Assembly: GCA_021740175.1 (NCBI GenBank)
Contig: JAIPAH010000007.1
Coordinates: forward strand, 1 to 45,594
DNA from: Bacteroidales bacterium
GTDB taxonomy: Bacteria > Bacteroidota > Bacteroidia > Bacteroidales > JAIPAH01
DNA length: 45,594 nucleotides
Direction: 5' to 3'
Position 1 is the first letter of the stretch, and each line of letters opens with the position of its first letter. Below are positions 38,651 through 45,594 of this stretch, one piece after another. Made by a program: the position numbers and the translations under genes. Under the pieces are notes generated by a model that saw nothing but the letters and a program-made list of their open reading frames with translations, did not search any database and was not told the origin of the DNA.

Positions 38651-38709
38651 TAACTGCTGAGGATAATGAAGCCCCGGTTTGGCAGGCCTTCATTAGGGCT
38701 TAAATGTTA
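38651..38709. repeat. attC-like imperfect palindrome 1
   Basis: TAAC-TGCTGAGGA-TAATGAAG-core-CTTCATTA-GGGCTTAAAT-GTTA; overlaps the stop codon of ORF 38700-38909. Confidence 0.6.
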
Positions 38710-38909
38710 GTGGCTGCTGGTTTTTTTGTCTTTAATTTTGTTCCTATATTTTTTCTAATGGCAGCCAACCGTCCCTCTCTTAACTGAGAATGCTTTTCAT
38801 ACTCCTCATGCCTGTTATTACGTATATCACGCATCATTTTTACCGCGCCAAAGTCCTTATTTTTTTCATTTTCTTTAAATGTTCTCATTGCTCTTTCGAA
38901 ATTAAGCAT
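38700..38909 (-). CDS. Small hypothetical protein, very rich in charged residues
   Basis: 69 aa; ends ...AATNI* within the conserved AACATTTAAGC motif. Confidence 0.55.
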   Translation of the reverse strand: MLNFERAMRTFKENEKNKDFGAVKMMRDIRNNRHEEYEKHSQLREGRLAAIRKNIGTKLKTKKPAATNI

Positions 38910-38911
38910 TT

Positions 38912-39511
38912 TTAAAATTCATAAATAAAGTTCAATCCAAATGTTAATGATTTGATTGTTTTATCTTTGTATGGTATTACATTAGCTGGAATTACTATAT
39001 CATCTTTTCTTTTGAAATTTAAGGTGGTGAAAGTCATATTATAGCTAACATTTAATCCCAGAAGAAATCTGTTAAAGATATCAATATTGACATCCACGGC
39101 AGGAGCCATATAAAGTGCTCCATCTTTTCCTTGATATGATTCTATATTGTTTAGTAAAAATGAATATCCGATTTGAACACCGGGTTTAAAAGCCACCTTC
39201 TCCTTTTGAAAGTTTAATCCAAGAAACAGGAATGGACTTAATTCCGAGACGGTATTTTTATCAGAGTAGTGATATCCGGACCATGAAATATCATATTTAG
39301 AATAATTCATACCACCCCCTATTGATAATAATTTTTTGTCATGATAATATTTTAATCCAAGGTTTATTGGATTTTCCCAATCACGAATGAGCCAATGGTC
39401 AGTCAGATTTATCGGGTATCCCATTTTTAAAGAGATTTCCTTTTCCTGGCCATTTAATTTAACTTGCCCGAGCATTATAAATATCAAAATTAAAATTATC
39501 GAGTTTTTCAT
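38912..39511 (-). CDS. Outer-membrane beta-barrel-like protein
   Basis: 199 aa; signal peptide, alternating aromatic/hydrophobic strands, C-terminal ...SLTFGLNFIYEF. Confidence 0.7.
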   Translation of the reverse strand: MKNSIILILIFIMLGQVKLNGQEKEISLKMGYPINLTDHWLIRDWENPINLGLKYYHDKKLLSIGGGMNYSKYDISWSGYHYSDKNTVSELSPFLFLGLNFQKEKVAFKPGVQIGYSFLLNNIESYQGKDGALYMAPAVDVNIDIFNRFLLGLNVSYNMTFTTLNFKRKDDIVIPANVIPYKDKTIKSLTFGLNFIYEF

Positions 39512-39699
39512 AGGTCGGTTTTTTTATTAGCACATATTCGAATCAGGGTTCGTGAAAGCACCCCAACGGTTGCTGCTATGAAACCATTGGTAAACCAAAA
39601 GAAGCGGTCTATACCCATGTTATAGGCTGGCGTAAAGATACAATGCTCTGATTTGTTTATCTTAAACCCCGGCTTCATAAGGCGTATTTTGGTGGCGCT

Positions 39700-40332
39700 T
39701 TATGATATCCATGTCGGAATAGTATTTGCAATTGTCCAGTTGCCATTTTGTTTTTCAAAATATACTATCTTACCGGAAGCTCCTAAGCTAGCAAACGAAT
39801 GTCCCATTTCAAGTATTGCTTGAGTCTTATCTTCATTATAAGCAATTCGGGTAAATCTTATTATTCCATTTGAGTTTTCATATGCTTGATAAAATGCATC
39901 CCAACCACTATTTGCATCTTGACCGTTAAATATATAGGAAAGCTCTTCGGATGAAATGACAATGATTTGTTTACTATCACTAATGAAGTTTTCCCCGAAT
40001 AAAATTGATGTATCATTTAAAGCGTTCAGGCTTTCTACCAGCGTTGTATCAAAATTCGGATTATTCTCTTTAATCTCTTCATAAAAACTATTCCGGTAAT
40101 TCAAAGCCACATGTGCGGTGGAGTTTTGAGCTATTACAATCTTTTCGGAAGAATACTTCTCATTGATTACCAATGAATATAATTCATAATCTTCTTCATC
40201 TACCTGGTAAGGTTGCTCTAAAGGAAAATCCGGTCTTTCTTCTTTCGTGTTCTTTTCACAACTTACTGCTATCAGAGCAATGCTAAGTAACGTTAAGTAA
40301 ACAATTTTTTCTTTTTTCATAAAATTATTCAT
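39700..40332 (-). CDS. Hypothetical lipoprotein
   Basis: 210 aa; MKKEKIVYLTLLSIALIAVSCEKNTKEERPD. Start overlaps end of upstream CDS. Confidence 0.7.
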   Translation of the reverse strand: MNNFMKKEKIVYLTLLSIALIAVSCEKNTKEERPDFPLEQPYQVDEEDYELYSLVINEKYSSEKIVIAQNSTAHVALNYRNSFYEEIKENNPNFDTTLVESLNALNDTSILFGENFISDSKQIIVISSEELSYIFNGQDANSGWDAFYQAYENSNGIIRFTRIAYNEDKTQAILEMGHSFASLGASGKIVYFEKQNGNWTIANTIPTWIS

Positions 40333-41197
40333 GGATGATTATTTTTTCGGATTTAATAGCATTACCCTTATCATCAATCAGGGTCATATAATACAGACCG
40401 GCAGCAAATGAAGACAAATCAAGCTGATAGGTATTCCCTTCAAATTGCCCTTTATCACGTATCTTCCCCGACGGATCGAAAATTTTGTAATGTTTGGAAT
40501 TTGTGGAGTTGAAATCTGTTTTAACCGTTAAGTCACCTTCGGTTGGATTCGGATACAGATATATATTACCCTTATGATTAGCAATATGGTCTATAGCATT
40601 CGTTCTGTCATTGTAATATAAAAAGACGATCCATTTAGCAGCGCTTGGGTCAAACAATCCAACGCTGGGTGGATATAGATAAATAGCAGCTTCAAAATCC
40701 TTATCGCCGAAGATGTTGGTTATTGCCAATGAATCAATTACGTTCCAGGCTGAATCGGCCTTTTTTTTGAGACTGGAATCATTCATCCTCGTACCGTCAA
40801 CATGAATGTATCTCATGTCATCAGGTTTTCCGGTATTTGAACCGGTATAATCAAACGGGTATGTTGTATCAAAATCTTTTGGCTGCGCTATTTCCCCTGT
40901 TCCCATCCAGATTATACCTGCGTCAAATACGGTATCTGACGTGGAATGTAACTTAAATGTGATTCCCCCGAAATCACCGGGCGGATAAAAATCAATGGAA
41001 AAGGGGATACTGTCCCCGGGACAATCTGAACATGAATAATAGGATATATTGCCCCCGTCATACGTATATGTATCGTAATCGACAATTAAGGTAGCCATGT
41101 TTACATGTTCTTTTTTAAGAATGGTATCACCTTGCCCATAACCGGTCAAATAACCTAAAAATCCTGCGATTAAAATAATAAGTTTGATGGGTTTCAT
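40325..41197 (-). CDS. Secreted protein with T9SS type A C-terminal sorting domain
   Basis: 290 aa; signal peptide; NIYLYPNPTEGDLTVKTDFN...LSSFAAGLYYMTLIDDKGNAIKSEKIIIHE. Confidence 0.85.
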   Translation of the reverse strand: MKPIKLIILIAGFLGYLTGYGQGDTILKKEHVNMATLIVDYDTYTYDGGNISYYSCSDCPGDSIPFSIDFYPPGDFGGITFKLHSTSDTVFDAGIIWMGTGEIAQPKDFDTTYPFDYTGSNTGKPDDMRYIHVDGTRMNDSSLKKKADSAWNVIDSLAITNIFGDKDFEAAIYLYPPSVGLFDPSAAKWIVFLYYNDRTNAIDHIANHKGNIYLYPNPTEGDLTVKTDFNSTNSKHYKIFDPSGKIRDKGQFEGNTYQLDLSSFAAGLYYMTLIDDKGNAIKSEKIIIHE

Positions 41198-41329
41198 TTT
41201 ATTTGAAGTTTACATGCCATTTTATAATTACCGGTCATAAAGATAATAAATAAATAATCGGTTTGCAAATTGGTTCCAAGACCTGCCACAGTGCATATTC
41301 TATTTTGCACTCATCAGCCTGATGCTGAA

Positions 41330-41362
41330 GCTAAAGTAATTTCTCAACCACCGGAAGTATAA
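41330..41362. repeat. Intergenic repeat copy A
   Basis: GCTAAAGTAATTTCTCAACCACCGGAAGTATAA; matches 42254-42288. Confidence 0.7.
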
Positions 41363-44535: not shown

Positions 44536-44729
44536 ATTATATTAGGTTTTGTGATTGTTGCGTTGGTTATTTTGTTTCGGCTGAATGAATCGTTGAGACG
44601 TGTTGCATTCCTGTCCGCCGTCAAGAAATCAGCCCCAAGATTGGAATAATCATAATACTTCTAATAATTGTTTCATTTTAATGTTTCAACTAAGATACAA
44701 ATAAATCTTTGTAGGTTGCATCCTGGCTT

Positions 44730-44871
44730 GGGTAACGGTGGCGTGTAAGTTTCGTGCCACGCTTCCACCTTCACGTTAATAAACCTATACCCCACAAGAT
44801 AATCAAAATATCTGTTTGGAAAAGTACTAAACCGTGGCATGAAATTTACACGCTGTTTCCACCCGTAGTTA
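44730..44871. repeat. attC-like imperfect palindrome 4 (largest)
   Basis: GTAAC-GGTGG-CGTGTAAGTTTCGTGCCACG (44742-44761) pairs with CGTGGCATGAAATTTACACG (44833-44852)-CTGTTT-CCACC-CGTA-GTTA; 18 of 20 bases match in the long arms. Confidence 0.8.
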
Positions 44872-45029
44872 TTCAATCACTTTTCTTTTTCGTTCAATGA
44901 CATCGTCGATTCTGATTAAATCTTCACTCCAGGCTAAAAGTCCTTTCTCTAACCAATGTTATCATGCCTTCGAAGATATGGAGCCAATCTATCGTGTGAA
45001 AATATTTGTTCGATTGCTTTTCGTTCCAT
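44869..45029 (-). pseudogene. Short frameshifted ORF ending inside attC-like palindrome 4
   Basis: MERKAIEQIFSHDRLAPYLRRHDN then a frame change to WLEKGLLAWSEDLIRIDDVIERKRKVIE*; the TAA stop is part of TAAC. Confidence 0.4.
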
Positions 45030-45038
45030 ATTTTTTTG

Positions 45039-45107
45039 TATCTTTGTGATGTTGTCCCGGTAATTCCTCTCCCAGTCCTTATGCTGGCGATGAAGCCGGG
45101 TTTTTTG
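45039..45107 (+). ncRNA. Possible short transcription unit: TATCTTTG promoter motif followed by a GC stem and T-run
   Basis: TATCTTTG 45039-45046; CCCGG...CCGGG (45056-45100) with inner CCAG/CTGG, then TTTTTT 45101-45106. Confidence 0.3.
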
Positions 45108-45317
45108 TTTCTAATACTTTCAAAGATAATAATTTAACTCAGGACTTTTAGGTTTCTCTTTTCTCCATTATGGGTGGTAACGCCTCTACATCCGTAATCT
45201 TCCGTTTATTATCCTATTATTTGGTTTGTTTATCGTTCTATTCTGGAACGATATCCTAACTATTATATCGTATCATCAATGGGATTTTTAAAATTATAAA
45301 AATTTTTATTTGTGACA

Positions 45318-45469
45318 TAACGATAAAGCCGAGCAGTTTTTAGACTGCCAATACCAAGCCATTATTAAATAAATTTAAAATTTATTCCTTTTTGCCGTTT
45401 GGTACATAGCATAAATGCGGCCTGGCATTTGGAGAGAAAGTGTCCTATATATAAATCCCCTTTAAGTTA
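45318..45469. repeat. attC-like imperfect palindrome 5
   Basis: TAAC-GA-TAAAG (45318-45328) and CTTTA-A-GTTA (45460-45469); includes the stop codon of the partial CDS at the window edge. Confidence 0.4.
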
Positions 45470-45594
45470 TAACTCAATTCCCAGGCTTACGCCAATGAAT
45501 TGGGGTTTGATTTTGTATTCGTATAATTTTTCAGTGTAGCCAACTCCCGTATGTTTAAATTCATATTCAGCAAAACTGTGATGATAGTAAATCT
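45467..45594 (-). CDS. C-terminal fragment of an outer-membrane beta-barrel-like protein; 5' part outside the window
   Basis: Minus-strand reading ...IYYHHSFAEYEFKHTGVGYTEKLYEYKIKPQFIGVSLGIEL*. Confidence 0.6.
   Translation of the reverse strand, partial: IYYHHSFAEYEFKHTGVGYTEKLYEYKIKPQFIGVSLGIEL

Follow-up and report, generated by a model that had tools for sequence, protein, structure and literature searches.

Do the genes that fill the right-hand end of one contig of a Bacteroidales genome form an array of mobile cassettes, and what kind of system would move them? The window, 45,594 nucleotides long, is the entire contig C126 of a metagenome-assembled genome (MAG) of 3.43 Mb in 239 contigs, 79.65% complete. 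An earlier reading of the DNA from its letters alone (the sequence-only reading) had noted that the minus strand carries every gene between about 36.9 kb and the end of the window, with which the open reading frame (ORF) calls agree, and had proposed an integrase-less, integron-like cassette array with five attC-like sites. The co-orientation, the position of hairpins 3' of stop codons and their recurrence between different genes all stood up to analysis, while the fifth site and the canonical GTTRRRY box did not. We consider it probable that the block is an integrase-less fragment, resembling a CALIN (cluster of attC sites lacking an integron integrase), of an integron-type cassette system that relies on a recombinase other than canonical IntI. 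We lean, with less assurance, towards a broader reading in which a second kind of integron, with a recombinase devoid of the IntI domain, its own attC-like hairpins and an attI-like core, is widespread in Bacteroidia (about half of the sampled genomes) and in viral contigs, and in which the window would be an integrase-less outpost with an extra, lineage-specific hairpin type.

Three of the sites, reported at 38651-38709, 41485-41537 and 42465-42550 as sharing a stem, belong to what we call type A. Their core, AACATTYAAGCNNTAATGAAG, is found without mismatch at all three, and a covariance model (R1) built from 12 type-A sites of the same genome recovers all of them; E-values of R1 and of the two further models built in this analysis, R2 and R3, are rough. 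On the minus strand, site 1 (38648-38713; R1 66 bits) reads AACATTTAAGCCC TAATGAAG...CTTCATTA...GTT and contains the stop of ORF 38700-38909, site 2 (41476-41540; 66.7 bits) contains the stop of ORF 41527-42207, and site 3 (42462-42554; 66.5 bits) follows the stop of ORF 42559-43176 at a distance of 10 nt; the claim that several stops fall inside sites thus holds for sites 1 and 2. A whole-genome search allowing 0-3 mismatches and demanding a matching second arm found 12 copies (three on C126, two on C149, one on C105 and six on C128), of which five, the three in the window and the two on C149, carry the exact core and seven are full diverged copies, with no random scatter across the genome. 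R1 recovered 12 of 12 at E≤4e-11 and, beyond reverse-strand echoes of these sites, nothing in the genome better than E 0.1; a stem at C21:3263 was rejected as a site, the AAC and GTT arms being absent. The sole available congener genome (G001, MAG Tobar18m-G3) holds three further sites, 38 sampled relatives from other families of the order hold none by R1, and a scan of 84,980 species for the exact core found it together with the palindrome in that congener MAG only, the matches in other phyla and in viral contigs being chance occurrences without the second arm. Each of the 15 type-A sites follows an ORF on its own strand; most are no more than 40 nt from the stop codon of that ORF, and some enclose it. 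The antisense (bottom) strand folds more stably in most copies, and there is an additional base on the L'' side. Sites 1-3 are therefore members of one real, dispersed and lineage-specific hairpin family, far beyond chance.

Site 4, described earlier at 44730-44871 as keeping the layout with an unrelated stem, represents a second hairpin family. We searched for AAC-stem-GTT hairpins with a scanner that used shuffled regions as its null (five shuffles of each of 15 regions, giving a mean above zero in one region at a cut-off of 19 and in none at 21), and found further hairpins, unrelated to type A, interleaved in the same arrays, including site 4 itself (44728-44862, minus strand; scanner score 24.8). 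Contigs C128, C149, C131 and C105 of the same genome are sibling arrays with more of these hairpins; the scanner found eight in 21.6 kb of C128 and seven in 10.2 kb of C149, a few of them an unrelated repeat, where shuffles gave 0-0.2. As a generic test for attC the scanner was abandoned, since at a low cut-off it returned too many matches in class-1 integron plasmids. Twelve type-B hairpins align as one family, AACATGCTGTATACACCATGCGGGC...CCCGCACGGTGCATACAGCTATCCGTTGTGC, and every one of the 12 has the AAC/GTT arm pair and an A.C mismatch that does not vary. These sites had been chosen by pairing, so a covariation count on them is biased, and we relied on independent tests instead. They served to build the second model, R2, whose score for site 4, one of the 12, is for that reason not independent. 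The third model, R3, was built from 79 R2 matches in other Bacteroidia and contains no sequence of the genus itself; it matches 17 hairpins in sequence of this genome or the congener at E≤2e-6, among them site 4 (40 bits, E 1.3e-6).

Beyond the genus, R2 matches 204 of 395 Bacteroidia genomes (E≤1e-4, at most eight candidates scored per genome), and it has no match in class-1 integron plasmids. The type-B arrays are one-directional, with sites 0.5-2.5 kb apart, up to 15 per array, flanks with few matches and single-direction runs that reach 20 kb or more; the 79 matches behind R3 come from 14 fetched stretches and lie on essentially a single strand within each. In the fetched array loci 68 of 86 type-B sites (79%) start between -30 and 60 nt from a same-strand stop, compared with 13.6% at random and 14% on the other strand. 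A position right after stops, together with hairpins that are stable on both strands, is what would be expected of terminators or processing signals of co-directional operons that happen to have a recombinase as an unrelated neighbour. We give this explanation hardly any credence, as the typed sites have no T-run directly after the hairpin, the AAC/GTT arms and the A.C mismatch are conserved, no Rfam family is found in the window (gathering cut-off) or in the array loci L026 and L142 (E≤0.1), and the relation of strand and side between hairpins and recombinase in 80 independently chosen viral loci, described below, would be unexpected.

In seven of the fetched arrays, a tyrosine recombinase lies directly upstream of the sites and is co-oriented with them. 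The recombinases form a family of about 370 aa with an N-terminal extension of about 75 aa, for which we found no convincing Pfam family; in one member, at L105:284-1639 (G130:C32), this extension is apparently duplicated. The family is present in 195 of the 395 genomes (E≤1e-80) and co-occurs with R2 matches, both being found in 148 genomes, R2 matches only in 56, the recombinase only in 47 and neither in 144 (odds ratio 8.1, p 5e-22, shared ancestry not corrected for). All seven array recombinases match the integron integrase model TIGR02249 below its cut-off, and the one whose alignment is listed in full, which scores just above the NF040815 cut-off, is interrupted at the segment specific to IntI. 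Family members have a KDR-to-RHS motif spacing of 60-61, compared with 102 for two IntI controls and 68 for XerD, which means that the family is without the insertion of about 41 residues that is specific to IntI (the additional domain, patch III), and in a phylogenetic tree IntI forms a separate, fully supported clade outside the family.

These features also bear on a further explanation, that of ordinary canonical integrons with an IntI gene in the unassembled 20% of the MAG. Canonical IntI above the cut-off does exist in 3 of 197 genomes of the order (G008, G083 and G186), which also carry R2 matches, but the corresponding figure for the Bacteroidia is 1 of 395, against 204 with R2 matches, and the recombinase that does stand beside the arrays is without the IntI domain; we therefore regard this explanation as very improbable. 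The arrays of G008, G083 and G186 are unusable as positive controls because their contigs end at or near the integrase. The search for IntI that the sequence-only reading called for found none above the TIGR02249 cut-off on the contig or elsewhere in the genome, the best matches being XerD-like (C105) and other tyrosine recombinases, which were rejected as candidates.

The association between recombinase and hairpins extends to viruses. Eighty viral loci (L269-L348, on contigs of up to about 349 kb), picked by recombinase alignment alone, contain 158 R2 matches, 157 of them on one strand, and where 3 kb or more of upstream sequence is available (45 loci), 34 loci have at least one site and 29 of these have more than one. 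The viral recombinases are compact (about 270 aa, with a KDR-to-RHS spacing of 55-61). R3 likewise matches hairpins in the Polaribacter phages P12002S and P12002L (L349 and L350), including one in P12002L between two DNA-methyltransferase genes. The P12002L cluster has been called a CALIN, and IntI1 recombined one attC site from it with attI1 in Escherichia coli (PMC9892861); the R3-matched hairpin is one of the two attC sites of the cluster and may not be the recombined one. The viral arrays resemble the phage CALINs in their hairpins and differ from them in having a recombinase of about 270 aa, where none was described for the phages.

Consistent with an integron-type organization, a candidate attI lies next to the recombinase in other Bacteroidia. 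It is a predicted core, GGGTATAAACAAGTT, followed by AGC or a similar triplet about 90-120 nt after the recombinase stop, and is found with at most three mismatches in 14 of 27 loci, compared with 0.6% of shuffles. The core may resemble the end of attI1 (AAACAAAGTTAGGC). Cassette boundaries point the same way in part: homology ends 2-6 nt from G|TT in the cassettes shared by G291 and G499 (75% identity), in a tandem duplication in G358 (99.7%) and in a pair in G408. Other homology ends, those of type-A units included, fall at AAC rather than at G|TT.

Several observations weigh against an integron-type reading of these arrays, some of them concerning type A. A conserved non-coding unit, 120-510 bp long, comes after most type-A copies and is atypical of integron cassettes; a pair of 508-bp type-A units, 97% identical, has both ends at AAC, where type-A repeats break, and not at G|TT; and neither R2 nor R3 matches type-A sites. 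In the window the modular unit, with its 'head/tail' structure, occupies 42222-42461 (minus strand) and is also found on C149, C128, C194 and in the congener, and a diverged copy follows site 2 at 41293-41475 (minus strand). With regard to type B, the canonical GTTRRRY box is fully matched in just six of 85 sites and RYYYAAC in five (YAAC in 75, GTTR in 80), and bottom-strand folding is favoured in 50 of 86, which is not significant (p 0.07). The hairpins of viral contigs have the reverse orientation to the ORFs (82% on the opposite strand), and so do those of the Polaribacter phages. Several intervals in the window contain three or four genes rather than one, the 56 R2-positive genomes counted above have no family recombinase at the cut-off used, and the genome itself has, as far as its 79.65% completeness goes, neither IntI above cut-off nor a family recombinase; nor was the attI-like core found in it.

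The type-A tails and the 508-bp pair ending at AAC, along with the further palindromic repeats in this genome, are what one would expect if the hairpins were a passive palindromic repeat, of a kind with repetitive extragenic palindromes (REP), miniature inverted-repeat transposable elements (MITE) or a non-autonomous transposon, that invades gene ends in genomic islands and leaves the genes themselves unmobilised. Such a repeat would not readily account for sites that are tied to same-strand stops and keep one direction over 20 kb or more, nor for a single recombinase family that co-occurs with the sites and flanks them, nor for the homologies that end at G|TT, and we judge it improbable. We therefore favour the integron-type cassette system, and infer that its cassettes recombine and are mobile at present.

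According to the model that we favour, the block at 38.6-45.6 kb would be one of several cassette arrays in the MAG, each cassette consisting of one to a few co-oriented genes and an attC-like hairpin. The Bacteroidia-family tyrosine recombinase, or a close relative, would most likely cut beside the GTT arm of the hairpin, with the hairpin folded as single-stranded DNA as its probable substrate. Joining of the cut hairpin to another hairpin or to the attI-like core would then move gene and hairpin as a unit. The copy in this genome would be CALIN-like in that it is maintained in trans, has lost its recombinase gene, or has that gene missing from the assembly.

Among known systems the window resembles a CALIN as defined by IntegronFinder (at least two attC sites with no integrase nearby). 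There are four attC-like sites in the window, and searches with TIGR02249 and with the recombinase family found no integrase gene on the contig. Shared with CALINs are co-oriented cassettes, imperfect AAC/GTT hairpins and the lack of an adjacent integrase in this genome, whereas GTTRRRY boxes are rare here, and the sites are attC-like as judged by the models built in this analysis. Sedentary chromosomal integrons likewise combine a recombinase and an attI-like core with long one-directional arrays, lineage-specific hairpins and toxin-antitoxin cargo, but the recombinase here is without the IntI domain, has the N-terminal extension and is co-oriented with the array. We did not file the system as a canonical integron because IntI with its domain and GTTRRRY boxes were both looked for and did not hold. 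In its anatomy the system is nevertheless built to work like an integron, with mobility presumed. In the reverse-orientation intI integrons of Spirochaetes the integrase is also reversed relative to the usual layout, but there it is a canonical IntI (PMC9668308). An 'Integron-like' subgroup of simple tyrosine recombinases, compared here by its description, is similar in that the insertion in its CAT domain is reportedly not fully conserved, and it does not appear to have been linked there to Bacteroidia cassette arrays (PMC8138268). No prior description of a Bacteroidia cassette system was found in the searchable open-access literature, and one may exist elsewhere.

We also examined the cargo, which the sequence-only reading had described as outer-membrane barrels, lipoproteins and a protein exported by the type IX secretion system (T9SS). 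This description proved too narrow. In the window, all on the minus strand, the cargo ORFs are a lipoprotein-like ORF of 122 aa (44167-44535), ORFs of 280 aa (43312-44154) and 205 aa (42559-43176), none of the three with a Pfam match, a 226-aa ORF that forms a single-gene cassette between sites 3 and 2 (41527-42207), the ORF with a T9SS C-terminal sorting domain (PF18962; 40325-41197), which is the only Pfam match among the window proteins, ORFs of 210 aa (39700-40332) and 199 aa (38912-39511), and a small ORF of 69 aa that ends inside site 1 (38700-38909). The sibling arrays carry MNT/HepT-like, HigB-like and UPF0175/DUF3368 toxin-antitoxin genes, Fic, AAA/DUF4143 and anti-phage genes, namely HerA-SIR2 (L026:7157-9970) and AbiU (L028:15075-16772). 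Toxin-antitoxin and anti-phage genes are the usual cargo of chromosomal integrons and defence islands.

Comparison of the locus with the congener, as the sequence-only reading had suggested, showed no gene order fixed between the relatives. In the congener a patatin-like gene occupies the same edge of the chromosome and the array is absent; that genome has the T9SS gene in another context, at 94% identity against 83% for the backbone next to it. Both genomes have a UPF0175/DUF3368 pair (93.8% identical) behind a type-A site, but the genes upstream differ. The end of synteny with the congener is marked by a degenerate TTGTTCGTTGTTC repeat (window 36820-36868), which occurs at many loci in both genomes.

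The fifth site of the sequence-only reading, at 45318-45469 on the minus strand, has no support as belonging to either hairpin family: it appears neither in the hairpin scan nor, with filters switched off, among R2 matches as weak as E=5. It abuts a dispersed repeat of about 200 bp (repeat D; 45147-45342, with its core at 45179-45310, minus strand) that often lies near the array start and, at several array positions, ends in ACGTT just before a gene. Repeat D also occurs on four other contigs of this genome (C105:8283-8477, C128:36795-36876, C131:15776-15906 and C31:3-136) and on C146, C144 and C45 of the congener, and may possibly be an attI-like insertion point. Two other palindromic elements were rejected as cassette sites. 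One is a MITE-like TCTAAAAAGCC repeat on C128 (356-505, 18508-18655, 20515-20678 and 41401-41543) and on C83 and C144 of the congener, where the C83 copy interrupts the start of a toxin-antitoxin cassette; the other is a set of five palindromes, repeated in tandem every 107 bp, that lies between two chromosomal genes (C131:24265-24876).

Bacteroidota are considered to be almost devoid of integrons: for Bacteroidetes, IntegronFinder 2.0 reported only In0 elements and one Salinibacter integron (PMC9024848), and the phylum is missing from the clade-specific attC models that have been published (PMC8352920). If the system described here recombines, gene-cassette platforms would have been overlooked in a large phylum and in many viruses because searches require the IntI domain and attC sites of the proteobacterial type. 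It would also bear on the standing assumption that the additional domain of IntI is needed for recombination of folded single strands. Finally, given the HerA-SIR2, AbiU and toxin-antitoxin genes in the sibling arrays, the platform may be a route by which these bacteria exchange anti-phage defences.

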